Positions 24,248 to 53,545 of a stretch of DNA of 59,907 nt are shown one piece after another; within the stretch, counting starts at the first letter, position 1; every line of letters starts with the position of its first letter. The notes under the pieces are model-generated. The model had not been told where the DNA came from, did no database searches, and saw only the letters and a list, made by a program, of their open reading frames with translations. Position numbers and translations under genes: made by a program. This DNA comes from Bacteroidales bacterium (GTDB lineage Bacteria; Bacteroidota; Bacteroidia; Bacteroidales; UBA10428): positions 1 through 59,907 of the forward strand of contig JAFGOZ010000456.1 of the NCBI GenBank assembly GCA_016926235.1, given 5' to 3'.

Positions 24248-24257
24248 AGTCAATAAA

Positions 24258-27200
24258 TTAAAATTTAACATTTACTCCAAAAATGAAATTTCTTGAGAGC
24301 GGGTAACCATTCCCATAATCGTAACCCCTTGCGTCAACCATGGATGCATCGGGTACACTTGATTTTTGGAACTGGCATACATTATAAACTGTTGCATAAA
24401 CTCTGACATCCCCGATCTTCATTTTCTTAATAAACGGTTGATCGAAAGTATATGACAAGGTTATATCGCTAATTTTCAAGTAATCACCTTTCTCAAGGAA
24501 TAACGAAGATTGTGGAAACTGATTATACCCTCCTACATCAAGCATACCAGTAATAAACATGGGGTAAGTAGTATTATCCCCCGGTTGTTTCCAGAATTCA
24601 TCCGGAAGTACATAAGACGCCTTGGGCAACCAAGGTCCGAAATTTGAATCAGCACTATATTTGCTTAACCGTTCGAACATAGTCCTGTTAAAAATATAAT
24701 GTCCAAATGCATAGGAGGCATTAACTCTCAGGTTCCATTTTTTATACTTCAGTACTGTACTAATTCCGCCGACAACCTTAGGATTTGACGTTTTACCGGT
24801 AATGAAAGCATAATCTGTATCATCAAAAGTTTTGAGTATATAATTTCCATCCAGGTCATTATATAAAGCCATCCCGGGAAAATATTGCCCATCTGAATAA
24901 AGGTATGACCACTCATTTTTCAGTCTTTCCCCGGTAAAAGGATTAACCGGTATGTCATTAATATCCTGCACCGGCCCCATGTATTCATACATCCAGGGTA
25001 CATTTAACGGATAACCTAAAACATAGGCGTAGTTTTTTTCCTTATTCAGGAAATCCCTCCCACCATAAGGTAACTTGGCTATGTAGTTATCGTTATGTGC
25101 AAAATTAAGGATCAATTCCCATTGAAAATTCCCGGATCTCGGGAAAAGATGCCCATCTATCGACAATTCCCATCCCTGGTTTACAACATCGATCAGATTA
25201 GCCTTAGCCGAAGTATATCCTGAGTAGGAGGGAAAATTAATATCAAATACCAGTCCATCGGTGTACTTATGATAAGCATCGAAGGTTATGTATAACCTGT
25301 TGGTAAATCCGGTGATTTCAACTCCGATATCCCATTGTTTTGTTTCTTCCCAACCTAAGTTTGAATTGGCAATTTTATTGAAATCAGGAGTAATGGCGGT
25401 TGTTCCGCCATACGTTTTGACATCCATATTCGGGTTCCACAAATTGATACCGGCGGTGGTATATTCATTAAAGCGCAAGTAATCATCGGGGTATTGCGTG
25501 CCGTTTATTCCGTAACTGACTTTCATTTTAGCATAAGTAACTACTTGTGACAGCGGTTTCCAAAACGATTCATCAGACATAACCCAACCTGCCGAAATAG
25601 CGGGAAAATTACCCCAGCGTTTGTCTTTTCCAAAACGGGAAGATGCTTCACGGCGGTAGTTAATATCCAATAAATATCGGTCTTTAATCGCATATCCGGC
25701 TCTTAACCAGTATGACAACATGGCATTTGAAGAAACATCACTATAACCATCGATATTTTCTTTTTTGTACCCAACTATCGTTTTAATGCCATCGCTGGAG
25801 CCATCCTCTCCTGTCAGGCTCAGGTATTCGTATTGGTTGTAAGTAATTGCATGACCAGCCAATATACTTAACTGGTGATTTTTAAAGATTTTTTTATCGT
25901 ACGTTGCATAGGTTTCGACACTGATCCCATATCTTAATCCTTGTTCCGATAACCCGGAAGATTGTTCGTTTTCATGTATAACCGAGGGTCCGAAAAAGTT
26001 CTTTTTACTCTGATAATATGAGAGTCCTATTTGTGAATTCAATTTAAGCCCTTCGAATAAATCGATCTGCAACAGGTTGCTTAGCTGTGTCTCCATCACC
26101 CTGTTTTTATTGTATACTTTGTTTAGCTTTCCAACAAGGGCATCCAGTTCTTCCTGACTTTTATACAAATAGGAGGCTGGCAGACTAATTGGCTCAATTG
26201 GAAACGTTTTTTCAGGATCGGCCTCACCTAAGCCGGTTTCCCTGTCCATAAAGGTTGCCCGTACCGTTAAATCATTTAACACCTTTGATGAAAAATTGTT
26301 GCGAATATTGGTGTTAAACGTATACCTTTTATAACTGTTGGCAGTCACAATCCCTTGTTCATTATAATATCCTAATCCAAGTCTGTAATTGGTAGCCTGT
26401 GTACCTCCGGTTACATTAAAATCGCAGTTATTCACGGTTCCCTGCCTGTAAAACATGTCTTGAAAATCATAGTTGTTATTGAACGACGGATTTAAACTAT
26501 CGGTAAGTTCTAATGGCATTAACCTTGCCCTGGCTTCAGAATAAGGTCCCCATTGAGTATATTCCGGTATTTCATTCTCTATCAGTTGCAGCTTAAACCT
26601 TCTGTCTGCTGCACCTGTATAAACTTTGAACAAGGCGGGTCTGACAGTAATTCCTGAATATGCATTAAAATGGAATTCCGGTTCTCCTACCTGTCCTTTT
26701 TTTGTCGTAATAAGAATAACCCCATTCGCACCTCTCGATCCATATATTGCAGCTGCGGAAGCATCTTTTAAAATATCTATTGATTCAATATCGGCAGGAT
26801 TCAATGATGACAAATAGTCGGTATTCGTAGCATCATATCCGGCCAGATCTTCCAGTGTTGTGGGAATACCGTCTATTACATATAGCGGTGAGCTAAGGCC
26901 ATTTACCAGGTCCATATCGCTGGATACATATGAGTTCCCTCTGATTAAGAGTCCACCTCCGCTCATACCCGGAGCACCAGAACGAACCAGATTTTGTACC
27001 CCAGCAGCTTTACCTGCCAGCAATGTGGAGATAGAAGCCGCAGGTATTTCTGACAGCACTTCGGAAGGAACGCTCACGACAGATGCTGTAACCCTTTTTT
27101 TATGCACTGCCTGGTAGCCTATGACTACCATTTCTTCCAGTTCAGTTATACTCGGCACCAGTTGAACATTTAAATTTGTATTGCTTCCGACCGCTATATT

Positions 27201-27716
27201 TTCAGTAACATATCCTACAGACGAAAATACCAGGGTAACAGCTGTATCCGGAACAGATATAGAATAATTTCCGGCTAAATCCGTGATAGTACCGGACATA
27301 GTTCCAGCAATTAATATATTAACCCCGGGTAATGCTTCGCCATTTACAACATCGGTTACTTTTCCTTTAATTACTCTTTCTTGCTGTAAATTATTGATTA
27401 CCTTATTATTCCCTTCTTTTTGAGAATACAAGATGTTTTCATCGGGCCCATCTTTCTGAAAGGGTCCATTTTGATCGGAGAGAGGATTTGTTTTACTATG
27501 AACAAATCCTATGTCCGTTCTGTTCTCTGTAACGAAGAACAAATCGTCAGTGAAAGTGTTACCACGATCAAGGTTAATTTTCTTCGAAACATCTGGATTT
27601 GCCCATACAACTGTAGACAAACATAGTAAAAGGACATGTATTTGCATCATAAAAAGCAACGACTTTTTAAAATGATTCCATATCCCCATTTTCATAAAAA
27701 GTAATTTTTTCTTCAT
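24258..27716 (-). CDS. SusC/RagA-type TonB-dependent outer-membrane transporter
   Basis: A 1152-residue TonB-dependent transporter that would import oligosaccharides across the outer membrane with the adjacent SusD. After a signal peptide (~1-40) comes an unusual ~75-residue segment that weakly resembles an STN domain (LFFVTENRTDIGFVHSKTN). A carboxypeptidase-like domain follows (~113-195, VIKGKVTDVVNGEALPGVNI), then the plug domain with PLYVIDGIP and the SusC signature SIDILKDASAAAIYGSRGANG, then the barrel to the C-terminal aromatic end (FIFGVNVKF). If the STN-like part is real, control by a sigma/anti-sigma pair is possible, but none is encoded in the window. Confidence 0.95.
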   Translation of the reverse strand: MKKKLLFMKMGIWNHFKKSLLFMMQIHVLLLCLSTVVWANPDVSKKINLDRGNTFTDDLFFVTENRTDIGFVHSKTNPLSDQNGPFQKDGPDENILYSQKEGNNKVINNLQQERVIKGKVTDVVNGEALPGVNILIAGTMSGTITDLAGNYSISVPDTAVTLVFSSVGYVTENIAVGSNTNLNVQLVPSITELEEMVVIGYQAVHKKRVTASVVSVPSEVLSEIPAASISTLLAGKAAGVQNLVRSGAPGMSGGGLLIRGNSYVSSDMDLVNGLSSPLYVIDGIPTTLEDLAGYDATNTDYLSSLNPADIESIDILKDASAAAIYGSRGANGVILITTKKGQVGEPEFHFNAYSGITVRPALFKVYTGAADRRFKLQLIENEIPEYTQWGPYSEARARLMPLELTDSLNPSFNNNYDFQDMFYRQGTVNNCDFNVTGGTQATNYRLGLGYYNEQGIVTANSYKRYTFNTNIRNNFSSKVLNDLTVRATFMDRETGLGEADPEKTFPIEPISLPASYLYKSQEELDALVGKLNKVYNKNRVMETQLSNLLQIDLFEGLKLNSQIGLSYYQSKKNFFGPSVIHENEQSSGLSEQGLRYGISVETYATYDKKIFKNHQLSILAGHAITYNQYEYLSLTGEDGSSDGIKTIVGYKKENIDGYSDVSSNAMLSYWLRAGYAIKDRYLLDINYRREASSRFGKDKRWGNFPAISAGWVMSDESFWKPLSQVVTYAKMKVSYGINGTQYPDDYLRFNEYTTAGINLWNPNMDVKTYGGTTAITPDFNKIANSNLGWEETKQWDIGVEITGFTNRLYITFDAYHKYTDGLVFDINFPSYSGYTSAKANLIDVVNQGWELSIDGHLFPRSGNFQWELILNFAHNDNYIAKLPYGGRDFLNKEKNYAYVLGYPLNVPWMYEYMGPVQDINDIPVNPFTGERLKNEWSYLYSDGQYFPGMALYNDLDGNYILKTFDDTDYAFITGKTSNPKVVGGISTVLKYKKWNLRVNASYAFGHYIFNRTMFERLSKYSADSNFGPWLPKASYVLPDEFWKQPGDNTTYPMFITGMLDVGGYNQFPQSSLFLEKGDYLKISDITLSYTFDQPFIKKMKIGDVRVYATVYNVCQFQKSSVPDASMVDARGYDYGNGYPLSRNFIFGVNVKF

Positions 27717-27964: not shown

Positions 27965-28798
27965 TTATTTTAATTCGATAACGATTATTTCTTTATCCCT
28001 GTCCTTGCATCTTGCATGCACATTTGTATGTTGATCAACAACAATACTTTGCCCGCCGTAAACCATACCTTGCCAGGGGCTATGTGAGATTTCCCCAACT
28101 AGGTCAGTTCCGATCAACGGGCACGTTATTAATTCGTCAGCAGGTTGTACAACACGCTGTAATTCTTTTGCGTGGCTTGGCCATGCTTTTTCACCAGCAT
28201 CCCATCCATAAGGGATAATGACAAAATCAGGTTCCTGTTTTTTTATCTTTAACAATAAATCATCCTGAAAAGAATCTGCACAAATCATCACCCCGATTCT
28301 TCCCAGACAGGTATCAACGGCTTCTATTTTTTCTCCTTTAGAATAAGGTGGAGACATTAGTTCAGTAAGGATATTGATTTTCCGGCGTTTTAAAAGGATA
28401 TTCCCCTCATCGTCAATAAGTATGGCTGAATCGAACAGTTTATCACCTGTTTTTTCTGCCAATCCAATGTTGATAAATATTTTGTACTTCTTCGCTAAAA
28501 CACACAGCTTATCTGAATCCGTCCCGGGAATTTGGAATGCTCTTTCTTGCGCATCGGGATTTACCCAGCCAAGAATAGAAGTTTCAGGAAAAGTAATAAT
28601 CTCAGCCCCTTTTTCTCTGGCTTTAATAATTGCTTTTTCGATCCGTACAAAGTTGCCTGAACGGTCACCGCCTAAACAAAATTTTTGGGCCATGGCAACT
28701 TTAACACTACCATTTTGCGCGAACGTTTTAAATGAGTAGTTCAAGCTTAATCCTATTATATTAAAAAGGACTAAAAAGTGATTTGATCCTTGTTTCAT
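27965..28798 (-). CDS. Exported carbon-nitrogen hydrolase (nitrilase superfamily)
   Basis: A 277-residue member of the nitrilase/amidase superfamily with the Glu-Lys-Cys triad: E72 in FPETS, K140 in KRRKIN and C173 in MICADSF. Unusually for this mostly cytoplasmic family, it begins with an N-terminal hydrophobic signal (~7-27, ending FAQ), so it is probably periplasmic. Its ATG overlaps the stop of the preceding GH172 gene by one base (TAATG), which implies translational coupling. Substrate unknown; an amide on a modified sugar or peptide is possible. Exported nitrilase homologues do occur in Bacteroidota PULs. Confidence 0.85.
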   Translation of the reverse strand: MKQGSNHFLVLFNIIGLSLNYSFKTFAQNGSVKVAMAQKFCLGGDRSGNFVRIEKAIIKAREKGAEIITFPETSILGWVNPDAQERAFQIPGTDSDKLCVLAKKYKIFINIGLAEKTGDKLFDSAILIDDEGNILLKRRKINILTELMSPPYSKGEKIEAVDTCLGRIGVMICADSFQDDLLLKIKKQEPDFVIIPYGWDAGEKAWPSHAKELQRVVQPADELITCPLIGTDLVGEISHSPWQGMVYGGQSIVVDQHTNVHARCKDRDKEIIVIELK

Positions 28799-30468
28799 TA
28801 TTCGTTAATTTTTTTAATCGAAAAGCATTCCTTATCAGCTTCTAAAACATAGAAATTTTCCTTGGTAGTAGCAACTGGGCGTTGTACACTTTTAATATCC
28901 GGCTTAATGTTTATTTCAAACGGACGTTGGATGTAATAGTACGAGGTCAAAGCATAATTTATACAGGTTGAATCCCAGTGCCACATTTCGATATTTGAAC
29001 TGATCGATGTGTTAAACGGTATTGCATCCAGTGAACGATGGCGCATGTTCACCGTCATTTCAGGCATAAAATTACCTGCTCCTGTTGGCTGCGAAATAAA
29101 AGGATGCGAAAATGGTTCGGGGTGGCACCATGCATAGCCGTAATAATCTTCGCTGCCCGTCCCAATGCTTGACGGAAATCTTTCGCCATCAACAAAAATC
29201 TTTTCATCCCCTTCTCCCCACCAGCCATTGGACATGTTGAACAGGGTAACCTGGTCGCCAACATAAAGTCCTTTTCCTTTGATATCAATATAATTGATAT
29301 CGAAAAACCAATCTTTTTTATTACGTGTTTTTAAATGGTGGTATTCATGCCAATATGCGCCAAAGTACATGCTGTTTGGTTCCCATGCGTAGTCTGATAA
29401 GCCTATTTCTCCTTGCAAACGAATGGTGTCTTTCCCGTAATTAATATATGCTATCCTGCATATTTCCCGGAAGGGCATTTCCCATGATGATTGCATCTGC
29501 CCTTCTTTTGTTGTGGCATTGATCCATGTTTTATGAGGAAACATTTTATAACCTGTTCCGAAAAAATCGCCTACTGGTGCCCAAACTGTTTGTGTTCCAT
29601 CAAATGATGCGGATAAAACAGTTGAACGTAAAGCCTGTTCCAGATTCTGGCTTTTAACAGCCACGTTTAAATAAGAAACAGCCGCGTCTTTTTCATTCAA
29701 TAGAATGTCTAAAGAATCACCTGGCAGGATTTCCTGATCAAATGTTATTATTGTTCTTTCAGGAGAAATATCTGCAAGTAAAATCTCTTTAGTCTGATCA
29801 AATGCCTGTTTCGATTTTTGAAGCACTTTTGTCGAAAATGTTTTCACCCTCGTCCCTTCTTTATATTCGCGGTAGCATATATTATAATATACATCCGGCC
29901 AATAATGGTTGTCTTTTAACCTTAGTGAATCACATTCGTAAGTTATTTTGCAGTGTTTGGCAAAAGGGATAGGGACATACAAATTATGCCCCCGTTCATT
30001 TAAAGGGGCTTCATCGGGCACTGATTGACTAAAAGGGGTCTCAGCAAGCATCTGTCCGCTGATTATATCAAAGGGATGCCCTTCTATTTCAGGTATTGAA
30101 TCATTATCCAGATAAATTCTCAGAGTCCCGTTCTCTGCCTTCCAAAAAGTCATCCACCAACGTACAATAGCGCCTGGCCCCTCCTGGTCGAGAAGCACAA
30201 ACTCACGACGATTATTGGTATTTTCAACCCTTACAAAATAAGACTTATCATCATTGGCATACCAGCCTTTATCTCCAATGGCAACCGTTTCGCGGTCATA
30301 ACTACTGAACTGCTTAAGTTTATACTGCTTGTCGGGAAAATATGAAAGGTGTTCCCTGTCTGACATTTCCTGAAGTAGCGATTCCATGGTCACTGAACTG
30401 TTGCAGGCACATCCCAAAAGTAACAGGACAATAAAGATGACAGATTTTGTTTTATACTTTATTACCAT
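28798..30468 (-). CDS. GH172 (DUF2961) glycosidase lipoprotein, short form, copy C
   Basis: A 556-residue lipoprotein (lipobox LLLGC) very close to copy A at 6915 across the catalytic region, including GPGAIVRWWMTFW, WWGEGDEKIFVD and GTGSEDYYGY with the catalytic Glu pair 21 residues apart. It stops about 130 residues earlier: after RPVATTKENFYV the C-terminal beta-sandwich of copy A is absent and a short unrelated tail (ADKECFSIKKINE) ends the protein. The catalytic fold may be complete, but loss of the tail domain could alter binding or trimer assembly. Its ATG overlaps the stop of the sulfatase scar, and its stop overlaps the nitrilase start. Confidence 0.85.
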   Translation of the reverse strand: MVIKYKTKSVIFIVLLLLGCACNSSVTMESLLQEMSDREHLSYFPDKQYKLKQFSSYDRETVAIGDKGWYANDDKSYFVRVENTNNRREFVLLDQEGPGAIVRWWMTFWKAENGTLRIYLDNDSIPEIEGHPFDIISGQMLAETPFSQSVPDEAPLNERGHNLYVPIPFAKHCKITYECDSLRLKDNHYWPDVYYNICYREYKEGTRVKTFSTKVLQKSKQAFDQTKEILLADISPERTIITFDQEILPGDSLDILLNEKDAAVSYLNVAVKSQNLEQALRSTVLSASFDGTQTVWAPVGDFFGTGYKMFPHKTWINATTKEGQMQSSWEMPFREICRIAYINYGKDTIRLQGEIGLSDYAWEPNSMYFGAYWHEYHHLKTRNKKDWFFDINYIDIKGKGLYVGDQVTLFNMSNGWWGEGDEKIFVDGERFPSSIGTGSEDYYGYAWCHPEPFSHPFISQPTGAGNFMPEMTVNMRHRSLDAIPFNTSISSNIEMWHWDSTCINYALTSYYYIQRPFEINIKPDIKSVQRPVATTKENFYVLEADKECFSIKKINE

Positions 30469-38233: not shown

Positions 38234-40336
38234 TTATCTTTTCTGTATCCAGATAAAATCGATGCCGATGGGTTTGCCAGGTTGGCTGGATTCCAGTGTT
38301 AATTTTTGCAATCCTTGTTTTAAATTGAAAATGCCAGAACTAAATGTACGGGATAAAATACCGCGATCCGTTTTCAGGTCAATTACACCACCTTCTTGGG
38401 TAAAGATCGAGTCGTTTATTTTGGCATGAATTGAACCTGAAGAATCAGTTAACCGGGCTGTAATATAAACCATGTAGTTTCCTTCTTCTGAAATAGGGAG
38501 GTTTAATTCTAATTTTTCGTCGACTTTTTTAGGCATCCATTCAAGCAACTGCCCCCCTGCCCATATTCTGCCCGAAACGAGACTGGTATTCTCATTTCCG
38601 GAAATGATATCCTCAGTTTGATAAAACACTGAGTTGGCAGAACCTTTCTTTCCAACCGGGAACCATTTTTCAGGCAATTTTACAGGTCTCACATCCCCTT
38701 TTGATATCCGGTTATTATCATCGTGCATTCCCCTGAACCCATAGTGATAAATAATCCGGGCATATGAAAAACCGGGAACCGGTTCGTGGCTCAACAATTC
38801 CATGTAAAATGCAAATTGATTTTTAAAAGGGATGTTGTCGATAATATGCCAGCGGTAGTTTGTAACAAACCCTTTTGTGCCGGGTCCATCGTTGCGTGGT
38901 TGCCCACAATAGGCATAATTAAAAATATCGGGTGATGACCATGCATAGTTAAAGTAATCTTCGGAACCAGTGCCAAAAAATACAGGAAACTGGTTATCGT
39001 CTACAAATATCTTTTCATCACCTTCACCCCACCAGTTGCCATAAGTAGAAGGCACATTCGATGGGTTCATCATGTGAGCTGCTGCCCCCACACAAACGCC
39101 TTTCCCACTGGTAAGCAAATAGGCAATATCACTGGGTTGTTCATACGACGATAACAGATCATGCCCAACTCTCCAACGCGCCCTAAAATACATAGAGCGT
39201 CCTTCATTCCACTTGTATTTTTCAGTGATAACTTTCCCGGCTAATGCAACTTCTTTATCTCCCAAATTTTCAATTTTTATGGATGCTGATTCTTTAAAAG
39301 GCATAAAAAAGCGACAGATCAGTTTTCCATTTTCTGTCACAGTTAAAGGGAGCGACCGATAAGGATTTACCCCACTGGCTGTACCGAAAAAATCACCCAC
39401 TGGCGACTGAATCTGTGGGTCAGAAGCACCATCGAACGAGATTCGCAAAACTGTTTGTCTGAGTGCGGTTTCCAAATTGGCATCCAGTATTTGCATCTCA
39501 AAATAATTGATTCCTTTACTTCCCGAGAGGTTCAGTATCTCCTCTTCCTTTCCGCTTTTTATAGTTGCCGCAAAAGCTGTTGGTTCTGCATTGACTGTAA
39601 CTAAGTTATTGTCCGGATCGGAAAGTATTTTTTCTGCATTTTCGATTTCTTTTGAATAGGCTTTAATATCAGCGGATTTGAAAGTTGTTAACCTTGTTCC
39701 TTTTTCGTATTGCCTGATATTTACATGGTAAAAATGCAGACCTTTTATATCGCCTTCCCATATTATTTTACACCTTTTTTCAAACGGTATCGGATAATAA
39801 CCTGCCATGTTCTGGGTAAACGAACCATTTAAATCAATGGTAGTTTTCGGAGCAATGGCATAGTATGTTTTGGTAAAAAAAGAAGTTGCATCTCCATCGT
39901 AAACCGGCTTTGATTGTCCATCAAGGTACATCCTGATATTGCCATTTATAGCAGCGGTCCAAAGTCTGACAATGGCGCCTGGCCCTTCTACATCACAAAT
40001 CAGGTATTCACCAATTCCATTTTCACCTGGTTCTTTTAACACTTTCTCGAACCCTGGGATCAGTTCACCGCCAAATCCATCCGAATTTTCAAACCAGCCT
40101 GGGGCATCGGGGAAAGTACTGCGCCGGTCGTACGATGAAAACTGGATGGTGTTGTATGAAGGTGAAGGATATTCTGCCAGGTTTTTCAGATTAATCATCT
40201 CGTTGATTAGTGTCCCTGTTGTTACTTGTGCATTAATACGTAGCGATGATAATAACAAAAAGATAACTGTTAGGAACAAGGCAAAATTTATTTTCAATAG
40301 GTTCTGGTTTGAATATTTTTTTACTCTTGAATTCAT
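38234..40336 (-). CDS. GH172 (DUF2961) glycosidase, secreted, copy D
   Basis: A 700-residue exported GH172 enzyme with a signal peptide at ~14-37 (ending NAQ). It is closely related to copy B, sharing TGTLINEMINLKNLAEYPSP, GPGAIVRLWTAA, WWGEGDEKIFVDDNQFP and FFGTGSEDYFNY; the catalytic Glu pair is 21 residues apart. The C-terminal beta-sandwich ends PIGIDFIWIQKR. It lies directly after a GH101-like enzyme (11 nt) and before the GH36-type gene. Retention of four active-site-complete GH172 copies in one locus, in two subgroups (A/C and B/D), suggests several furanosyl linkages or positions are addressed. Confidence 0.9.
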   Translation of the reverse strand: MNSRVKKYSNQNLLKINFALFLTVIFLLLSSLRINAQVTTGTLINEMINLKNLAEYPSPSYNTIQFSSYDRRSTFPDAPGWFENSDGFGGELIPGFEKVLKEPGENGIGEYLICDVEGPGAIVRLWTAAINGNIRMYLDGQSKPVYDGDATSFFTKTYYAIAPKTTIDLNGSFTQNMAGYYPIPFEKRCKIIWEGDIKGLHFYHVNIRQYEKGTRLTTFKSADIKAYSKEIENAEKILSDPDNNLVTVNAEPTAFAATIKSGKEEEILNLSGSKGINYFEMQILDANLETALRQTVLRISFDGASDPQIQSPVGDFFGTASGVNPYRSLPLTVTENGKLICRFFMPFKESASIKIENLGDKEVALAGKVITEKYKWNEGRSMYFRARWRVGHDLLSSYEQPSDIAYLLTSGKGVCVGAAAHMMNPSNVPSTYGNWWGEGDEKIFVDDNQFPVFFGTGSEDYFNYAWSSPDIFNYAYCGQPRNDGPGTKGFVTNYRWHIIDNIPFKNQFAFYMELLSHEPVPGFSYARIIYHYGFRGMHDDNNRISKGDVRPVKLPEKWFPVGKKGSANSVFYQTEDIISGNENTSLVSGRIWAGGQLLEWMPKKVDEKLELNLPISEEGNYMVYITARLTDSSGSIHAKINDSIFTQEGGVIDLKTDRGILSRTFSSGIFNLKQGLQKLTLESSQPGKPIGIDFIWIQKR

Positions 40337-44723: not shown

Positions 44724-45896
44724 TTAATTCTTTATGAATTGGTATACTTTAATTGAATGTGGAGACAATGTGATATTCATTATATTCCCCGACTTTATAT
44801 TTTGGTGTTCCCATAAATCTCTTATGCTATAGTCTTTCATTTTGTATGGATCAGCCGCCCAGTAATTCTCATTCGCTTTTAGAAGAACCGAGGGGTTGAT
44901 TTCAACGGTTTTAACTTCGTCTCCGCGGTTTAAAAGACAAACAGCTTTTTCTTTTCCAGACAGTTGTTTAACCCATATCTCATAATCACCATTATCACGA
45001 AAACAAAATGCCTGTTTGCCTAATGTATCCTGGTTAATTGCAATCATTTCGTTGTTGGTTAAAATGTCAAGGGTTTCTTTCGACATGTCCCGAAGATCGT
45101 TTCCTGCCATCAGTGGCGCAGCAAGTATACACCAGAGCGAGAAGTGTGTTTTGTATTCTTCGGTTGTCATTCCGTCATTTCCGACTTCAAGCATATCAGG
45201 ATCGTTCCAATGACCGGGACCGGCATATTTATTCAAATTTTTTTGTGCATCGAAAATGGCCATCATCGCATCCCAACGGTCAACAATGTCACCAGTTGTT
45301 CGCCATAGATGACCAACATCATTTGCCCATTCCCAGGGTTTTGATTGCCCCCATTCACAAAGGCTGAATACTATCGGACGACCTGCTACATATAACGCAT
45401 CCCGCATTATTTCATAAGAAGTCTGTGCATTTTGGGTTGTAGAGTAACACCAGTCGTATTTTAAATAGTCGACCCCCCATCTGGCGTAGGTCCGGGCATC
45501 TTGGAATTCATAACCACGACCGCCAGGACGTCCCTGGCATGTTTTTGTTCCAGCACATGAATAAATGCCAAATTTTAGGCCTTTTGAATGAATATAATCG
45601 GCAAGGTATTTCATGCCATTCGGGAAACGGTCTTTATCAACAACAACCTCTCCGCTTTCATCACGATCAACCTGCCAGCAGTCATCAATCACGACATATT
45701 CGTACCCGGCATCTGCCATCCCGCTGGATGCCATGGCATCGGCTATCTCCATGATCAGTTTTTCACTAACATCGCATCCGAATTTGTTCCAACTGTTCCA
45801 GCCCATTGGCGGGGTATTCGCAATTTGAGTAAATTTTTGGGCATTCAGATTGAAAAAAAGAATGAGCAGTAGTTTGATTAAAAATATGTGTTTCAT
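44724..45896 (-). CDS. GH27 alpha-galactosidase-type enzyme, copy B
   Basis: A 390-residue exported GH27 enzyme with signal peptide 1-19. Motifs are TPPMGWNSWNKFG, YVVIDDCWQ, nucleophile D148 in YLKYDWCY and acid/base D203 in RTTGDIVDRWD, all in register with copy A at 16431. It is the first intact gene downstream of the PHP/SusD scar, about 255 nt away, beyond an imperfect hairpin. As for copy A, alpha-galactose is the most likely target but GH27 relatives acting on other pyranosides exist. Confidence 0.92.
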   Translation of the reverse strand: MKHIFLIKLLLILFFNLNAQKFTQIANTPPMGWNSWNKFGCDVSEKLIMEIADAMASSGMADAGYEYVVIDDCWQVDRDESGEVVVDKDRFPNGMKYLADYIHSKGLKFGIYSCAGTKTCQGRPGGRGYEFQDARTYARWGVDYLKYDWCYSTTQNAQTSYEIMRDALYVAGRPIVFSLCEWGQSKPWEWANDVGHLWRTTGDIVDRWDAMMAIFDAQKNLNKYAGPGHWNDPDMLEVGNDGMTTEEYKTHFSLWCILAAPLMAGNDLRDMSKETLDILTNNEMIAINQDTLGKQAFCFRDNGDYEIWVKQLSGKEKAVCLLNRGDEVKTVEINPSVLLKANENYWAADPYKMKDYSIRDLWEHQNIKSGNIMNITLSPHSIKVYQFIKN

Positions 45897-46151: not shown

Positions 46152-46895
46152 CTAATACCCTGAATTTTGTTCTAAAATCTGCTTTGTGAAGTTCGTACTA
46201 TGAGATTGGTTGCAAAAGTACTTTGCAGGAAAAATCTGTTGCTCGTACTCAAATACGTTATATACTTTAGTGTCTGAATTCTTATCTTTATCAATACGAA
46301 TACCCCGGTCTGGTTTAATGAATCCCTCCTTGGCAATTTTCCAACGGCGTGCATCATAGAAACGATGTGCTTCGAGGCACAACTCAATCCTGCACTCATG
46401 GCTGATGATTCCAATATAAAGGCGCCTTTTATATGAGCTTCGTTGAAAACTTTCGTCACATTGTTCTGTAACCAGCTTGTCTGCATTTTCAATAAACAAG
46501 ACATTACAGTGTCCCGATGGGGTTTCTCGTGTTGTTTCAATCGTAGGGATGACAATCAATCCTTTATTTTCTTCAAATGTTGATGCAATTTCATTAATAC
46601 TATTATGCCCTAGATTTACATATTTTTTATTAGGTTGATATTCAATATGGTCTGTTATTGCCTTTGCGTCAAGTCCATATCTCAGTGCTTCATTTTCCCG
46701 AATTGTTGGCCAGACCAAACCATCAAAAAAAACAGTATGAGTGTGAAAATCACATTCTAATGTGTGGTAATCGGGTAAATCTGGTATTACAATACGTTGA
46801 GTCTCTTTGTATCCTTGCCCGTTGATGGCTAATGTACAGGTTATCTCCAGGCAACAAAATGCAATAAATAATATTTTTTTAGAAACCATAAACAT
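46152..46895 (-). pseudogene. Chimeric scar: PHP-domain protein 5' part joined to SusD 3' end
   Basis: After a signal peptide, residues ~30-145 are a PHP phosphoesterase-like domain (ECDFHTHTVFFDG, AKAITDHIEYQP, IPTIETTRETPSGHCNVLF). Around residue 145 the PHP similarity moves to the next frame (VFNEAHIKGAFI, where intact proteins continue GAFxFWNHPGW), so a frameshift lies just before. Immediately afterwards the main frame becomes the C-terminus of a SusD protein: ISHECRIELCLEAHRFYDARRWKIA, then EQQIFPAKYF and EQNSGY. The rest of the PHP gene and the body of SusD, perhaps with a SusC between, are missing. Substitutions in the usually invariant RHERRIEL and IPQ motifs indicate long decay. The promoter and operator upstream are still well formed. 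Confidence 0.88.
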
Positions 46896-46913: not shown

Positions 46914-46943
46914 CAAATATATGCTAAAATGATTTAGCACAAA
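46914..46943 (-). promoter_or_regulatory. Predicted Bacteroidetes promoter of the minus-strand array
   Basis: On the minus strand, TTTG (46940-46943) and TATATTTG (46914-46921) match the Bacteroidetes -33/-7 consensus with an 18-nt gap. A 16-bp palindrome fills that gap. Transcription would start about 10-15 nt before the ATG of the PHP/SusD scar. Confidence 0.7.
46923..46938. promoter_or_regulatory. LacI-type operator 1 (between -33 and -7)
   Basis: GCTAAAATGATTTAGC has perfect 6-bp arms around a 4-bp centre. Read on the minus strand it is GCTAAATCATTTTAGC, one base from the fucI site core. Binding here would block RNA polymerase directly. Confidence 0.72.
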
Positions 46944-47207
46944 ATTTATTTTAACTTTTTTTTAAAAAATTTTCATTTATTTTTTGTATATATTTAAATA
47001 TCTGTATATTATATTGTGTAATTGGATTGACTGTGATAGTTGACAATAACCTCTGCATCCTTTTCTGATAATTTTAATATTTATCGTTGTCATTGTTGAT
47101 TCTTACTATGGGTCTGCTTTTAATTTTATTTTTTATTTGCTTAATAATCTTGTATTTACACATTTTTGGCTTACTGGATTTTTTAAAATCAGTTTTAATT
47201 CTTAAAT

Positions 47208-47223
47208 TTAGAAACGTTTTAGC
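47208..47223. promoter_or_regulatory. LacI-type operator 3 (upstream, weaker)
   Basis: TTAGAAACGTTTTAGC keeps the central CG and a perfect right half (CGTTTTAGC) of the other two sites, with a diverged left half. It could be an auxiliary site for DNA looping, or act on the regulator's own transcription. Confidence 0.5.
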
Positions 47224-47552
47224 ATATATTATTTATAAAATGAACAATAAATAAAATAATATGGTACATTTATTTGGTCACTATTATTCAAAATCTGGAT
47301 AGTCATAATAAATCCCTGTGAATATTTCAATTTTTAAATCCATAGGTTAAAAAAGACTTCCTAAACGAAACATTTATATATAAATTATTTTTTTCTCATG
47401 AAGATTAATTGAGTTTCACGAATAAAAAAACAAAAGATAACGGATTGTGATAAAATCTACTTTTCAATATAACCTTTCAAAAAAAAATCACATAAATTAT
47501 ATATTAGCCTTTGTAATCTTGAACGAATGGGGCTTTATCCCTTATGTAAGCT

Positions 47553-47579
47553 ACTCATGTCTGCAAGAATTACATGAGT
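47553..47579. repeat. Inverted repeat in the regulatory gap
   Basis: ACTCATGT and ACATGAGT are perfect 8-bp arms separated by 11 bases. It is unrelated to the GCTAAA/TTTAGC sites, so it may be a different protein site or an RNA hairpin. Confidence 0.4.
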
Positions 47580-47805
47580 GTTATAATAGTAAAGAAATTT
47601 TACTTAATTCAGAATGAATCGTTAATACAGAAAATCATTCTATAAATGTTAGTGAAGCAAGTTGTAATTAAATATTTATCAAAATACCATTGTTGAAATT
47701 AGTTGTGTAAAAAATGACAAAATTGTATTAAAATCATTTTATAATCTGATCAATAAGAAGACTTATTCTCATGACTCTTAGGAGTAATTTTAATAATGTA
47801 AATAC

Positions 47806-47813
47806 TAATTTTG
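47806..47813 (+). promoter_or_regulatory. Possible -7 element for the LacI-family gene
   Basis: TAATTTTG fits TAnnTTTG about 110 nt before the regulator ATG. No good TTTG lies at the expected -33 distance, so this is tentative. Confidence 0.3.
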
Positions 47814-47923
47814 TAAAATCCCTTTTGTCAGGTTCGATTTTCATCTTTTTAACAAAATTAGAATTTTCAGTATTTTCAAGACAATCTTTAAAATATTAGT
47901 TTTATGAATGAATTCAACATATT

Positions 47924-48934
47924 ATGAAATCAAAAGTTACACTAACCGACATAGCTCAACATCTAAACGTATCTGTTGCCGTAATTTCATTAGTTCTCAG
48001 GAATAAATGGAAAGAAAACAGGATCAGTAAGGAGTTAGCTAAAAAAGTAAAAGAGGCTGCCGAACAACTAGGTTACAAACCGAATGTCTTGGCCCAATCT
48101 CTCCGTACTGGTAAATCCGGAATAATAGGCCTTATTATTGCAGATATCTCAAATCCTTTTTATGGTAAAATTGCTGGGGTTATTGAAAACGAGGCAGAAA
48201 AATCAGGTTATGAAGTAATGTTTGGAAGCAGTGAGGAAAACCTGAATAAATTCATAAAGGTAGGAGAGACATTAATATCCAGGCAAGTTGACGGATTAAT
48301 AGTGGTGCCGGTTGCTGGTTCAGATGCAATTCTTACAGATTGGAAAGCTAGGAATATTCCCATAATTTCCATTGACCGATTTGTTCCTAATCTTGATATT
48401 CCTTATGTTGTCAGTGATAATTATCAGGGTAGTTTGTTGGTTACTGATTTCATGATTAAAAAGGGATATAGAAAAATTGTTTTTGTAACAAACGATAGTG
48501 ACTTGTCGACCTATAAGGAAAGAGAAAATGGCTTCCTGGATGCTGTAAAAAAAAGCACTGTAACTAATATTTCCCACACAGTCTTTAAATTAAATCACAA
48601 GAACTGGAAAATAGAACTCAGAAATTTAATGCCATTAATATTGAAAATGGAAACGGAAATTATCTATTTTCCACAAAACATGCTTGGGATTGAAGGGATT
48701 CGAATTTTTAAAGAAATGAATATCAATATACCGAATGATATTTCTGTTGTATGTTATGATAATTCTGAAATATTTGAACTTTATAAGCCAGGGATTACCT
48801 GCTATGAGCAACCTATTTCCGAAATGGCGACGGATGCTACATCCCTTTTAATTAAAAAATTAACAAAAAATATAGCTATCGATAAATACAGAAAAAAAAT
48901 ATTAGGTAATTTAATTATCAGAGAATCATGCTAA
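47924..48934 (+). CDS. LacI-family transcriptional regulator
   Basis: A 336-residue LacI/GalR repressor. Residues 3-50 form the helix-turn-helix and hinge helix (VTLTDIAQHLNVSVAVISLVLRN, then YKPNVLAQSLRTGKSGIIG, shown in parts). The remainder is a periplasmic-binding-protein-like effector domain with IGLIIADISNPFYGKIAGVIE and RQVDGLIVVPV. It lies directly upstream of, and co-directional with, fucI-DUF6786-fucP, the standard layout for a local sugar repressor. Palindromes with a central CG or its variant occur at the fucI promoter and at the minus-strand promoter, as expected for this family. L-fucose, D-arabinose or a derivative is the obvious candidate inducer. Confidence 0.93.
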   Translation: MKSKVTLTDIAQHLNVSVAVISLVLRNKWKENRISKELAKKVKEAAEQLGYKPNVLAQSLRTGKSGIIGLIIADISNPFYGKIAGVIENEAEKSGYEVMFGSSEENLNKFIKVGETLISRQVDGLIVVPVAGSDAILTDWKARNIPIISIDRFVPNLDIPYVVSDNYQGSLLVTDFMIKKGYRKIVFVTNDSDLSTYKERENGFLDAVKKSTVTNISHTVFKLNHKNWKIELRNLMPLILKMETEIIYFPQNMLGIEGIRIFKEMNINIPNDISVVCYDNSEIFELYKPGITCYEQPISEMATDATSLLIKKLTKNIAIDKYRKKILGNLIIRESC

Positions 48935-48968
48935 TGCATACAAACTTTAAATTAATTTAATGCTGGGC

Positions 48969-48998
48969 TTTGGAATTAAATAATTTTTTATAGCTTTG
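48969..48998 (+). promoter_or_regulatory. Predicted fucI operon promoter
   Basis: TTTG (48969-48972), an 18-nt gap and TAGCTTTG (48991-48998) match the Bacteroidetes -33/-7 consensus. The gap is the same length as in the minus-strand promoter at 46914. Transcription would begin around 49004, leaving a leader of about 80 nt. Confidence 0.72.
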
Positions 48999-49013
48999 CT
49001 AAATCGTTTTAGT
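48998..49013. promoter_or_regulatory. LacI-type operator 2 at the fucI transcription start
   Basis: GCTAAATCGTTTTAGT is a near-perfect palindrome with the central CG typical of LacI-family operators. It starts at the last base of the -7 element and would cover the start of transcription. Confidence 0.75.
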
Positions 49014-49086: not shown

Positions 49087-50874
49087 ATGAGTACTAGATT
49101 AATAGGAACTTTGCCCAAAGTAGGTATCCGACCTGTTATTGACGGACGAGAACGAGGAGTCCGTGAATCACTTGAAAAACAAGTGATGAACATGGCAAAG
49201 GAAGCCGCACGGTTAATTGAAGATAACTTACAGTTCCCCAGCGGGGAAAAGATAGAATGTGTTATTGCAGATACATGTATTGGAGGAGTTGCAGAAGCTG
49301 CTATGTGTGCCGATTTGTTTCAGAGGAAAGGAGTTGGCGTATCCTTAACTGTAACACCTTGTTGGTGTTATGGAACTGAAGTAATGGATACGGATCCATT
49401 AATCCCCAAAGCAGTATGGGGCTTTAATGGTACGGAGAGACCCGGAGCAGTTTATCTGGCAGCAGCATTAGCTGGTTATGCACAGAAAGGACTTCCGGCT
49501 TTCGGTATTTACGGACGTGATGTACAGGATGCCAATGATATCAAAATTCCGGAAGATGTAAAGGAAAAAGTGCTTCGCTTTGTTAAAGCAGGTTTGGCCG
49601 TCTCACAGATGAAAGGAAATTCATACCTGTCAATTGGATATAGTTCAATGGGTATTGCCGGTTCAATGGTTGATTCCAATTTTTTCCAAGATTACCTTGG
49701 AATTCGCACTGAATTTGTGGATTCAACAGAAATACTCCGCCGTATTGACGAAGAGATATACGATAAAGACGAATTTAAAAAAGCATTGGCATGGACCAAA
49801 GACAATTGCAAAGAAGGGAAAGACTATAATAATCTTGAAAAACAAGAAAATGAAGCCAGAAAACTGAAAGAGTGGGAAATTGTAGTAAAAATGACTCTTA
49901 TCTGTCGCGATATGATGATTGGTAATTCCAAACTAATAGAAATGGGATACCGCGAAGAAGGGTTGGGAAGAAACGCTATTTTGGGAGGATTTCAGGGCCA
50001 ACGTCAATGGACTGATTATCAGCCTAATGCAGATTTTACTGAAGCAATTCTAAATTCCTCATTTGATTGGAATGGAGTACGCCAGGCTTTCATTTTTGCT
50101 ACTGAGAACGATAGTCTGAACGGGGTTTCCATGTTGTTCGGTCATCTTCTCACAAATACCGCACAAATTTTCTCGGATGTCCGTACTTTTTGGAGTCCTG
50201 AGGCTGTAAAACGTGTAACCGGAAAAGAATTAACAGGAATAGCCAAAAACGGAATTATTCATCTTATTAATTCCGGCTCAACCACTTTAGATGCAACGGC
50301 ACAGCAACAGGATGCAAATGGCAATCCGGTTATGAAACCTTACTGGGAGATTACAGAAGAGGAGGTTCAGAAATGTTTGGAAAATACAACATGGCCCCAA
50401 GCCATACGTGAGTATTTTCGTGGAGGTGGGTACTCTTCACAGTTTAAAACTGCAGGAAAAATGCCGGTAACTATGTCGCGCATAAATCTGATAAAAGGAA
50501 TCGGACCGGTTCTTCAAATTGCTGAAGGATGGACTGTTGAATTGCCTGAAGATATTCACAAATTGCTTGACGAAAGAACTGATCCAACTTGGCCCACAAC
50601 CTGGTTTGTTCCCAGAACAACAAGTATAGGTGCCTTTAAAGATGTATACACAGTAATGAATAACTGGGGAGCCAATCATGGTGCAATCAGTTATGGACAT
50701 ATCGGTGCTGATCTAATAACCCTTGCATCTATGCTTCGCATTCCCGTAAATATGCACAATGTTTCATTGGACAAAGTCTTCCGTCCAGCGGTATGGGCAT
50801 CTTTCGGAGAGGATAAAGAGGGTGCTGATTTCAGGGCATGTAATACATATGGACCATTATACGGCATTAAATAA
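49087..50874 (+). CDS. fucI: L-fucose isomerase (also acts on D-arabinose)
   Basis: A 595-residue cytoplasmic ketol isomerase converting L-fucose to L-fuculose; the family also interconverts D-arabinose and D-ribulose. It is similar to E. coli FucI along its whole length (591 residues there), with [20 protein letters not shown] at the N-terminus and NTYGPLYG at the C-terminus. The metal/catalytic residues correspond to E340 (FATENDS), D364 ([12 protein letters not shown]) and H531 (GANHGAIS), each three positions from E. coli E337, D361 and H528. It needs Mn2+ by family knowledge. No fuculokinase, ribulokinase or aldolase gene is in the window, so the pathway must be completed elsewhere. Confidence 0.97.
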
Positions 50875-50930
50875 TTGCAACTTTCAACCTGTTGTTTTTT
50901 GGGAATAGTAAATCTTCAATTATACAACTT

Positions 50931-52178
50931 ATGAAAAAGAGAATAACAATACTTGTGATTTTAACGGTTATACTAACTGGCAGCATGCTTGTCTGCTGTA
51001 AGATTAAAACGATAAAGAACAATAATAGAAAAATGGAAACTTTCAGCAAAGGAACGTATGGTTTTGATAAGCAATTTCTAGAAAACCATCTAAATGTTAT
51101 AGAATTAAAAAGTGGAAATGCATCAATAGCCATTATACCTGCTTTACAAGGACGTGTAATAACTTCAACCTGTGAAGGGGATAAGGGATTTAGTTTTGGA
51201 TGGATCAATTATGATCTTATTGAATCAGGAGAAAAACTCGAACATTTTAACCCATATGGAGGTGAAGAGCGGTTTTGGATCGGGCCTGAAGGTGGACAAT
51301 TCTCTATTTATTTTAAAAAAGGGGAAGAGTTTATTTTTGATAATTGGTTTGTCCCTTCACAGATTGATACAGAACCTTTTGATTTGATCAGAAAAGATAG
51401 TACTAGCACTCAATTTTATAAAGAAATTGCGCTTCAGAATTATTCTGGCACAAAATTTACCATGGAAGTAAACCGTAATATAATCTTATTATCCAATAAG
51501 CAAATAGGGGAATTATTAAATCTTCCTGAAAATAATCTTTCGATGGTTGCATATGAATCATCAAATACTATTAAAAACAAAGGAAAGCATTCCTGGACTA
51601 AAGAAACAGGGTTACCATCTGTGTGGATGTTGAGTATGTTGATCCCCTCACCTGAAGTTACTGTTGTAATTCCAATTAAACCTGGTGATGTTAAAGAAAT
51701 GGGAGTGAAATTCAACGATGATTATTTTGGCAAAATTAAAGATGACCGACTTAAGGTAGTAAATAATATTGTTTTTTTCAAAGCTGATGGGAAAAGTCGA
51801 GGGAAAATAGGTATTCCTCCTTTACGAGCTGCACAGTTCATGGGTAGTTATGATTCTCAAAATAAAGCATTGACTATTTTAGAATGTATTCTACCTGAAA
51901 ATAATACTGATTATGTCAATTCTGCATGGGAAATACAAGATAATCCGTATGGAGGTGATGCATTTAATTCATATAATGATGGACCACTTGAAGATGGTTC
52001 GCAAATGGGGCCATTTTTTGAATTGGAAAGTTCTTCACCAGCATTGGAATTAAAACCGGAACAATCGTATACCCACTTGCAGCGGATTTATCATTTTAAA
52101 GGCGATAAAGAAGAACTTAACAGGATAACTGAAAAAGTACTTCATGTTTCAATCGAGCAAATTGAAACAATTTTTTAG
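50931..52178 (+). CDS. DUF6786-type lipoprotein, mutarotase-like
   Basis: A lipoprotein of about 415 residues. I choose the ATG at 50931 because it opens directly into the leader MKKRITILVILTV with lipobox LVC; a frame from 50892 has no leader. The sequence pattern KGTYGFDKQFLE..GGEERFWIGPEGGQFSIYF..WFVPSQIDTEPF (in pieces) matches what I recall as DUF6786, a beta-sandwich family related to aldose mutarotases. It lies between fucI and fucP, 57 nt and 24 nt away, so it probably acts on the same sugar in the periplasm, for example interconverting anomers before uptake by the permease. That role is inference from fold and context only. Confidence 0.65.
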   Translation: MKKRITILVILTVILTGSMLVCCKIKTIKNNNRKMETFSKGTYGFDKQFLENHLNVIELKSGNASIAIIPALQGRVITSTCEGDKGFSFGWINYDLIESGEKLEHFNPYGGEERFWIGPEGGQFSIYFKKGEEFIFDNWFVPSQIDTEPFDLIRKDSTSTQFYKEIALQNYSGTKFTMEVNRNIILLSNKQIGELLNLPENNLSMVAYESSNTIKNKGKHSWTKETGLPSVWMLSMLIPSPEVTVVIPIKPGDVKEMGVKFNDDYFGKIKDDRLKVVNNIVFFKADGKSRGKIGIPPLRAAQFMGSYDSQNKALTILECILPENNTDYVNSAWEIQDNPYGGDAFNSYNDGPLEDGSQMGPFFELESSSPALELKPEQSYTHLQRIYHFKGDKEELNRITEKVLHVSIEQIETIF

Positions 52179-52201: not shown

Positions 52202-53545
52202 ATGACTGTGAAAGAAAAAGAGAGAATTATTCCGAAAGGGATACTATTGCCATTTGTGCTGATTACATCATTATTCTTTTTATGGGGATTAGCAAATAAT
52301 ATGACAGATACACTTTTGGCCGCTTTTAAGAGGATAATGAGCATGTCCGATTCAAGGACTGCACTTATTCAAATTTCTTGCTACGGATTGGGATATTTTA
52401 TCTTTGCACTCCCGGCAGCCATATTTATAAAGAAATATTCCTATAAATCTGGCATTCTATTGGGATTAGGACTTTATTTAATCGGTTGTCTCCTGTTTTT
52501 CCCTGCAAAGCTGACCGGAAATTATTTTCATTTTCTTGGCGCTTTATGGATTTTATTTGGTGGGTTATCCATTCTGGAAACTGCTGCCAATCCTTACATT
52601 ATTTCTATGGGACCAGAAGAAACGGGTACAAGACGCTTAAATTTTGCTCAATCATTTAATCCCATTGGATCGATTATGGGTGTTGTGCTGAGTCAGGTTT
52701 TTATCCTGGCATCATTAAATAAAGCCGGAGCGACAGAAAGAGCAGCAATGAATCCTGAACAATTACAAATGATACAATCCATCGAGTTAAATTCTGTTAC
52801 TTCTACATATGTATCTATTGGTGCATTATTGTTGGTTTTATGGTTGGTGATTTATTTTATGAAAATGCCTAAAACTGTTGAATCAAGCGGAAAAGTTGAT
52901 CTGGGTCCTACTATAAAACGCCTTTTGAAAAATAAAAATTATACCATGGGCGTTGCTGCGCAGTTTTTTTATGTTGGAGCTCAAATTGGCATTTGGTCTT
53001 TTACAATTCGTTATGCTATGCAGGAATTAAGACTTGAAGAGATCACATTACTTACAGGAGAAACAGCAGAACAAATTGCGGCGAACTATTATATTGCCTC
53101 ACTTATTTTGTTTGTTATTTCAAGATTTATTTGTACCGGTTTAATGAGATTTGTCAAACCTGGAAAATTACTTACATATTTATCCTTCTTGGCAGTAGGA
53201 CTTACCCTGATTGTAGTATTTGTTGGTGGCAGGATTGGAGTATATTCCTTAGTAAGTATTTCAGGCTGTATGTCTTTAATGTTCCCCACAATTTTCGGTA
53301 TTTCAGTAAAAGGTCTGGGTGAGGATACAAAAATAGCAGGATCAGGACATATTATGGCTATTGTTGGAGGAGCAGTAATTACTCAGCTTCAGGGTCTTGT
53401 TTCGACTTCAGTTGACAATATCCGTGCAGGTTTCTCTATTAATATACCGAGCGGTATTAATATGGCATACCTTATCCCTTTCGTCTGCTTTTTGTTTATC
53501 GCCTATTATGCTTTTAAAACTACAGGTAGGATTTTATCTAAATAA
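52202..53545 (+). CDS. fucP: FucP-type sugar/H+ symporter (MFS, FHS family)
   Basis: A 447-residue major-facilitator protein with 12 predicted membrane helices, similar to E. coli FucP (438 residues). Landmarks are LITSLFFLWGLANNMTDTLL in helix 1, LIQISCYGLGYFIFALPA in helix 2, ETAANPYIISMGPEETGTRRLNFAQSFNPIGS (in parts) and the C-terminal half with YVGAQIGIWSFTIRY. FucP relatives import L-fucose with protons and can also carry D-arabinose and L-galactose. It is the last gene of the operon controlled by the predicted operator at 48998. Confidence 0.93.
   Translation: MTVKEKERIIPKGILLPFVLITSLFFLWGLANNMTDTLLAAFKRIMSMSDSRTALIQISCYGLGYFIFALPAAIFIKKYSYKSGILLGLGLYLIGCLLFFPAKLTGNYFHFLGALWILFGGLSILETAANPYIISMGPEETGTRRLNFAQSFNPIGSIMGVVLSQVFILASLNKAGATERAAMNPEQLQMIQSIELNSVTSTYVSIGALLLVLWLVIYFMKMPKTVESSGKVDLGPTIKRLLKNKNYTMGVAAQFFYVGAQIGIWSFTIRYAMQELRLEEITLLTGETAEQIAANYYIASLILFVISRFICTGLMRFVKPGKLLTYLSFLAVGLTLIVVFVGGRIGVYSLVSISGCMSLMFPTIFGISVKGLGEDTKIAGSGHIMAIVGGAVITQLQGLVSTSVDNIRAGFSINIPSGINMAYLIPFVCFLFIAYYAFKTTGRILSK

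Follow-up and report, generated by a model that had tools for sequence, protein, structure and literature searches.

We analyzed a 59,907-nt stretch of the Bacteroidales contig JAFGOZ010000456.1 (hereafter the window), in which a gene of the LacI/GalR family lies between the promoter of a long, co-directional array of glycan-degradation genes on the minus strand and the promoter of the fucI–DUF6786–fucP genes on the plus strand. On comparative grounds, we consider it probable that this LacI-type protein is a local, sugar-responsive repressor serving both promoters through one palindrome, and that the sugar is likely D-arabinose or D-ribulose. A preliminary description of the window had proposed that one palindrome controls both the 45-kb array, a polysaccharide utilization locus (PUL), and fucI–fucP. 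Both promoters do carry predicted operators; for the array, our argument extends to the promoter at its head only.

Two palindromes are built into the two promoters

Operator 1 (GCTAAATCATTTTAGC; 46923–46938, minus strand) lies within the −33/−7 spacer of the array promoter (TTTG-N18-TATATTTG; 46943–46914, minus strand), where the 18-nt spacer encloses the entire palindrome. Operator 2 (GCTAAATCGTTTTAGT; 48998–49013, plus strand) shares the last base of the −7 element of the fucI promoter (TTTG-N18-TAGCTTTG; 48969–48998, plus strand), the final G of this element being the first base of the palindrome. The preliminary description had given exactly these positions for the two 16-bp sites and the same placement relative to both −7 elements, and we observed both. 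The two promoters are of the Bacteroidota type with an 18-nt spacer. Scanning the window for TTTG-N17-20-TAnnTTTG, with an expectation of 0.74 per strand from mononucleotide shuffles, we found two intergenic matches, both with the palindrome, and one inside a coding region. As no other intergenic match was obtained, the two palindrome-bearing promoters are the only intergenic full-consensus ones.

The gene between them (47924–48934, plus strand) encodes a protein of 336 amino acids (aa) and is of the LacI family, as had been proposed: the LacI helix-turn-helix domain (PF00356) and the periplasmic-binding-protein-like domain (PF13377/PF00532) are all above curated cut-offs. Its recognition helix carries Leu23, at a position that we take to correspond to E. 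coli LacI residue 22. The 23 NCBIfam families of LacI equivalogs (RbsR, CcpA, GalR, PurR and others) all scored below cut-off, the best being RbsR (191.6 vs 382). In LacI-family proteins the hinge leucine intercalates at the center of the operator. Hinge residues A57 and L60 are invariant in 40 of 40 aligned sequences, and their spacing of three residues is the same as that of AA-51/AA-54 in the available text of PMC2978694. Between the array promoter and lacI there is about 1 kb of AT-rich DNA (46944–47923) with no open reading frame (ORF) of at least 100 aa. Scans of the window for Rfam families (gathering threshold), this segment included, and for tRNAs gave no matches.

The regulator's relatives share the motif

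Loose pattern counts in the window were unimpressive: the pattern with three mismatches allowed gave 7 matches against 3.7 expected, a number reached by 12 of 100 shuffles and so not above chance, and CTAAA-N3-TTTAG gave 5 against 4.3 expected. For this reason we used a motif test independent of the window. We took 80 named loci encoding relatives of the regulator (33–47% identical over the best segment), left the window out, and ran a palindromic expectation-maximization search on the 250 bp flanking lacI in either direction (78 stretches from upstream, 79 from downstream). The family motif obtained de novo, GCTTAAACGTTTAAGC, had a log-likelihood of 759.9, while shuffled input gave at most 32.3 in about 40 starts. 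Over the 59,892 window positions, the family matrix placed 48998 first (15.6) and 46923 second (10.0), the latter with a narrow lead over the third position (9.2). Comparison with related regulators and the motifs flanking them, in line with a check proposed earlier, came out in favor of the two sites.

The separation was wider with a class matrix made from 20 sites beside regulators having the recognition-residue class of the window (window excluded; the regulator of one site, L097, was encountered only via pattern search). Operator 2 scored 23.6 bits and operator 1 20.8 bits, and the next window position 8.8. When the window was dinucleotide-shuffled 200 times, no position came up to 23.6 bits, and positions at or above 20.8 bits numbered 0.005 per shuffle on average. 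The matrix of the other class failed to single out the sites, 48998 being second at 6.5 bits, with 1.4 such positions expected per shuffled window. Chance does not account for the two palindromes.

The third, half-conserved copy that had been proposed at 47208–47223 (plus strand; TTAGAAACGTTTTAGC) keeps a single half-site, AAACGTTTTAGC. We rejected it as an operator: it ranks 16 under the family motif, and its 8.7 bits with the class matrix are background, 1.9 such positions being expected per shuffled window.

The placement of the sites within promoters also recurs. Among 85 distinct sites with at most one mismatch to the family pattern, 29 have TAnnTTTG between −40 and +50; with shuffled flanks (200 times) the mean was 9.8 and the maximum 17 sites. 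The commonest offsets of the −7 element from the palindrome start were +17 (8 cases), the geometry of the array promoter, and −7 (6 cases), that of the fucI promoter. These counts include close relatives and are not fully independent, and 56 of the 85 sites are without TAnnTTTG.

Genome-wide distribution of the sites

Of 393 genomes of the order that we searched, 55 had a match to the regulator at E 1e-50, and 30 of these matches were fetched. In 13 genomes chosen for having the regulator, the pattern with at most one mismatch matched 25 times against 7 for the reversed pattern, and 11 of the 13 had a match. As read from the maps, 20 of the 25 adjoin lacI, fucI, GH172 or a SusC operon, two of them probably being one site at two contig ends of genome G002. 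The remaining five lie before an Omp28-like gene, before uvrB, in small ORFs of G003 and G004, and before a gene in G008. The genome scans are informative at the one-mismatch level only, the excess being lost at two mismatches, as described below.

A Marinilabiliaceae metagenome-assembled genome (G005, the genome of L002) has five sites with at most one mismatch. One lies between lacI and a ribulokinase–fucI pair whose fucI is 84% identical to that of the window (L130), and a second copy of this arrangement also has its site (L146). Another (L129:522) is upstream of a cluster of an extracytoplasmic function (ECF) sigma factor, FecR, SusCD, GH85 and GH172, with a further site at the start of its GH172 gene, and the last (L144:4809) precedes another ECF sigma/FecR/SusC set. 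LacI-class sites ahead of ECF sigma/FecR pairs of SusC(D) operons in this genome suggest two regulators in series. Flavisolibacter longurius (G004) has two perfect tandem sites between lacI and susC and one site between another lacI and a GH172 gene. A perfect site precedes lacI–fucI in L003, and in L066 a 16-mer identical to operator 1 is directly upstream of a lacI relative.

Several paralogues may share one class of operator, and the window sites might accordingly be bound by another LacI paralogue encoded elsewhere in the genome. CTAAA-class sites stand before ROK sugar-kinase genes beside paralogous LacI proteins (L131, L137), and the perfect site of this class between GH172 and lacI in G004 is about 360 bp away from a lacI of the Tyr type, as though a Leu-type paralogue on another contig served it. 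In the window, a single lacI gene stands between both sites, its recognition residue matches their class, and other regulator families had no match among the ORFs scanned. We therefore regard binding by a distant paralogue as quite improbable and favor the regulator of the window.

The operator class largely follows a recognition residue

For 109 regulators, the window included, we took the best site with at most two mismatches within 300 bp and found one for 76; the tallies below omit the window. Where the recognition position is Tyr, the variable base was T in each half-site (CTTAA or T class) in 55 of 55 cases. Regulators with Leu, Phe, Ile, Met or Cys had CTAAA (A-class) sites in 13 cases (a single one has G in one half-site), mixed sites in 7 and T-class sites in none. 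The window regulator, with Leu and A-class sites, fits the latter group. Residue–base rules have been described for TVSR-type members of the LacI family (available text of PMC2978694); the group of the window is outside that set.

Some observations count against this rule and against the reading built on it. No site was found for 33 of the 109 regulators, among them the fucI-linked L142 and L099, whose FucI, DUF6786 and FucP are 82, 66 and 80% identical to those of the window. A palindrome search in the gaps of the site-poor L142 gave nothing convincing, while the gap of L147 has a two-mismatch T-class site upstream of lacI. With wider limits (110 relatives, window not included), allowing three mismatches gave T-class sites for 4 of the 32 non-Tyr regulators with a site and a mixed site for 1 of 58 Tyr regulators, and allowing 400 bp gave the Tyr regulator L134 a perfect A-class site. 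One of the T-class exceptions heads the D-arabinan-type PUL of G236. The exceptions are among the weaker or more distant sites. In a quick tree made without the DNA-binding domain the residue switches three times. In each of the two supported independent pairs the site class changes along with the residue, which is concordant but too few (sign test, P = 0.5). The link between residue and operator is strong, though not absolute.

The sugar is probably D-arabinose

FucI isomerizes D-arabinose and L-fucose alike. The fucI gene of the window (49087–50874, plus strand) is annotated as L-fucose/D-arabinose isomerase, and the best match of its product in the PDB is the D-arabinose isomerase 3a9r (970 bits vs 881 for the next). 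It is followed by a DUF6786 gene (50892–52178, plus strand; ATG at 50931 is the likelier start), which has a galactose-mutarotase-like fold in a model rebuilt from 24 sequences, the single-sequence version being useless (predicted local distance difference test score 34), and by a fucP-type permease of the major facilitator superfamily (52202–53545, plus strand; TIGR00885 above cut-off, NF007524 below). The DUF6786 protein has a probable lipoprotein signal, and the family is found in 28 of the 80 loci of the LacI group. In the fetched flanks of the same 80 loci we counted FucI in 24, GH172 in 26, FucP in 25 and SusC in 44; at least one of FucI, GH172, DUF6786 and ribulokinase is present in 39.

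The kinases of these neighborhoods point away from L-fucose. All five that we scanned beside lacI–fucI (L130, L135, L136, L138 and L146) pass as ribulokinases (NF003154) but do not pass as fuculokinases, while the kinase scanned in an L-fucose operon that lacks lacI (L171) does pass as a fuculokinase. G005 makes the same distinction within one genome. Its third fucI (82% identical) belongs to a complete L-fucose operon, alongside genes for L-fuculokinase, FucP, an aldolase and a protein resembling lactaldehyde reductase. The 16 kb around it contained neither a LacI homologue (E 1e-5, ORFs of at least 110 aa) nor a site with at most two mismatches.

The glycan side is consistent with this. In G236, lacI–fucI is followed by GH172, SusC, SusD, a transposase, DUF4185, GH172 and GH172, and the GH172 protein that comes first is closely homologous to the enzyme from D. 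gadei in 8ah3 (622 bits). The lacI–fucI gap has a 14-bp perfect palindrome, GTTAAACGTTTAAC, of the T class beside a Leu regulator; with three mismatches to the family pattern it was missed by the two-mismatch counts. DUF4185 and GH172 genes are directly after a LacI relative in G066. In L194 (8904–10148) a transposase gene lies inside a D-arabinan-type PUL, between SusD and DUF4185. D. gadei PUL42, as described in the available text of PMC10115798, was identified by proteomics of D-arabinan-grown cells, with fucose isomerase as the most abundant carbohydrate-active enzyme and with DUF2961 and DUF4185 enzymes. All four GH172 proteins of the window have the GEGD and GTGSED motifs at the 21-residue spacing of E233/E254, the catalytic residues of DgGH172c according to the same text. 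Because of the GH172 genes, the FucI match, the ribulokinase neighbors and the G236/PUL42 context, we favor D-arabinose or D-ribulose as the effector.

The gene names would instead suggest an L-fucose regulon, with the regulator as a LacI-type counterpart of Bacteroides FucR linking a fucose-glycan PUL to fucI–fucP. FucI and FucP of the window take their names from L-fucose and satisfy the corresponding models, and enzymes of the FucI family act on both sugars. But neither a kinase nor an aldolase had a Pfam match in the window ORFs scanned, the lacI–fucI operons of relatives carry ribulokinase, the complete L-fucose operon of G005 has neither regulator nor site, and the array has four GH172 genes against no Pfam match to a fucosidase (some array ORFs match no family). 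We consider an L-fucose regulon improbable; the L-fucose label of fucI–fucP is less likely than D-arabinose, and the sugar would probably be D-arabinose rather than L-fucose.

Model of repression and its weak points

From the sites, promoters, motif match, gene context and residue–base association, all read from sequence, we infer that the regulator binds and represses, what its effector would be and how far the array promoter would reach. A dimer of the regulator would bind the CTAAA-class palindrome at both promoters, occupying operator 1 within the −33/−7 spacer of the array promoter and operator 2 across the −7 end and the predicted transcription start of fucI–DUF6786–fucP. The bound protein would keep RNA polymerase off both promoters, and the operator positions are consistent with such repression by occlusion. 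Its release would come from a sugar in the cytoplasm, D-arabinose or D-ribulose being the likeliest. This one signal would turn on the breakdown and import of a D-arabinofuranose glycan (GH172, SusCD) and also D-arabinose uptake, mutarotation and isomerization (FucP, DUF6786, FucI). That the sites belong to the LacI gene between them, as the preliminary description had supposed, gains comparative support from the held-out motif, the promoter geometry, the residue covariation and the repeat of the arrangement in G005.

As the protein is only 336 aa long, we expect it to be dimeric and not to loop DNA. Tetramer looping between distant operators was considered and judged unlikely, since the protein stops before the region of the tetramerization helix; that helix of E. 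coli LacI presumably lies beyond its end.

Dual or activating members of the LacI family exist, and the regulator might instead activate, for example when bound with its sugar. However, a site in the −33/−7 spacer and a site over the expected start would both block polymerase, and the same two geometries recur in relatives. We regard activation as very improbable and retain repression.

Further points weigh against the repressor model. Operator 1 has a CA/TG center and lacks the central CG, and the lacI gene of the window has no operator directly upstream, unlike many of its relatives. The genome scan with two mismatches, made in six genomes, gave 47 matches against 72 for the reversed pattern and hence no excess. 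Since the same operator class is found at the ROK-kinase operons of paralogues, the motif does not mark fucI alone. The lack of a Pfam match to a sugar kinase gene in the window ORFs scanned tells against the model too, as does that to DUF4185 (PF13810) in the same ORFs, and the first gene of the array is decayed (see below).

More broadly, and with slightly less than even confidence, we propose a Bacteroidota-wide LacI class acting as a dedicated D-arabinose sensor over fucI in the role of D-arabinose isomerase, ribulokinase, the mutarotase-like DUF6786 lipoprotein, FucP and GH172 PULs. One helix residue would largely set its operator, and it would sometimes stand above an ECF sigma/anti-sigma pair, sensing inside and outside in series.

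Relation to known systems

BtAraR of Bacteroides (BT0354; available text of PMC4666351) is likewise a cytoplasmic monosaccharide regulator on an isomerase/permease/mutarotase operon and is predicted to act on SusCD loci. It differs in being of the NrtR family with a Nudix effector domain, in responding to L-arabinose and in having another operator; its binding and effector were shown experimentally. The window resembles the AraR type of coupling in that predicted operators of one regulator stand at a sugar operon and at a PUL, and so does G005. Control of a SusCD PUL by a LacI protein had been called less usual; the presence of SusC in the flanks of more than half of the LacI relatives counted above, and the BtAraR precedent for a cytoplasmic regulator, temper this view. 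Repressors that respond to a sugar and link monosaccharide catabolism with a PUL are of a known kind, to which the window would add a LacI-family member; searches of an open-licence library brought up no LacI protein described as regulating D-arabinose, GH172 or D-arabinan in Bacteroidota.

FucR of B. thetaiotaomicron (BT1272; available text of PMC3878776) also controls fucI and fucP homologues, but it is of the GntR family, and its regulon is one operon that encodes the entire cytoplasmic pathway and includes no PUL. Set against a FucR regulon, the window has a LacI-family regulator and, in the ORFs scanned, no kinase or aldolase match. D. gadei PUL42 shares DUF2961/GH172 and fucose isomerase with the window, which also has a SusC/SusD pair. 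In contrast to the window, PUL42 has DUF4185/GH183 endo-D-arabinanases, and the available text of PMC10115798 names no LacI regulator for it. As DUF4185/GH183 was not found in the ORFs scanned, we did not class the window as a PUL of this type. The two window GH172 proteins compared with solved structures are distant from the characterized ones (62–90 bits); this, together with the missing DUF4185, indicates that the glycan of the window may differ from mycobacterial D-arabinan.

The regulator has the helix-turn-helix and hinge leucine of the LacI regulons laid out in the available text of PMC4052901 and PMC2978694, and it is predicted to share their CG-centered palindrome and residue–base rules. 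The code given there applies to the TVSR set, in which AA-20 is Arg, and draws on AA-15/AA-16. At AA-20 the group of the window has Tyr or Leu/Phe/Ile/Met/Cys, and in our alignment this residue follows the base five positions from the center. The residue–base association extends past the TVSR set. Polymers of D-arabinose are a hallmark of the walls of mycobacteria and related organisms, and enzymes from bacteria that degrade them were reported in 2023 (PMC10115798, PMC10509167). With its defined operator, the predicted regulator could serve as a search tool for D-arabinose-polymer loci across Bacteroidota, and the pair offers a way to tell D-arabinose from L-fucose operons that share fucI.

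The glycan array and the reach of its promoter

The array behind operator 1 extends over 1520–45896 (minus strand), with a GH27-type gene at 44724–45896. The four GH172 (DUF2961) genes are at 38234–40336, 28798–30468, 12133–14277 and 6915–8975, SusC is at 24258–27716 (profile matches), and SusD is at 22658–24271 (Pfam SusD_RagB and SusD-like_3 above cut-off, below NCBIfam cut-offs), all on the minus strand. Gaps of 466, 532, 307 and 248 nt interrupt the array, and 255 nt precede it; these stretches lie at 45.9–46.2, 27.7–28.0, 17.6–17.9, 15.9–16.4 and 14.3–14.7 kb. In none of the array gaps did the TTTG-N17-20-TAnnTTTG scan find a full-consensus minus-strand promoter. This is compatible with one long transcript, and gaps of 248–532 nt could hold weaker promoters.

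The first ORF behind the promoter (46152–46895, minus strand) is a PHP/Sb-PDE remnant fused to a SusD C-terminus: its N-terminal half resembles PHP/Sb-PDE proteins (P0122, 374 aa), its C-terminal part resembles SusD (P0185), and the frame changes. As it is a remnant, the promoter once headed a different gene order. Operator 1 might accordingly be a relic of a decayed PHP/SusCD order, with the present array driven from other promoters; the gaps would allow this, and SusC is about 19 kb downstream of the array promoter. Against this, the array promoter and operator are intact, and the gaps have no other full-consensus minus-strand promoter. Moreover, the intact PHP homologue P0122 and the 85% identical LacI relative P0002 both come from 11,291-bp contigs, which suggests that the two may be neighbors. 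We consider a relic unlikely and prefer an array promoter that is still in use under the regulator.

At the far end of the array, a tyrosine recombinase gene of the phage-integrase family (83–1234, plus strand; Arm-DNA-bind_5) hints that the PUL may have moved. The last gene of the array (1520–3955, minus strand) is of the GH38 type, the alpha-mannosidase family, which with GH172 would, speculatively, suit an arabinomannan-like glycan.

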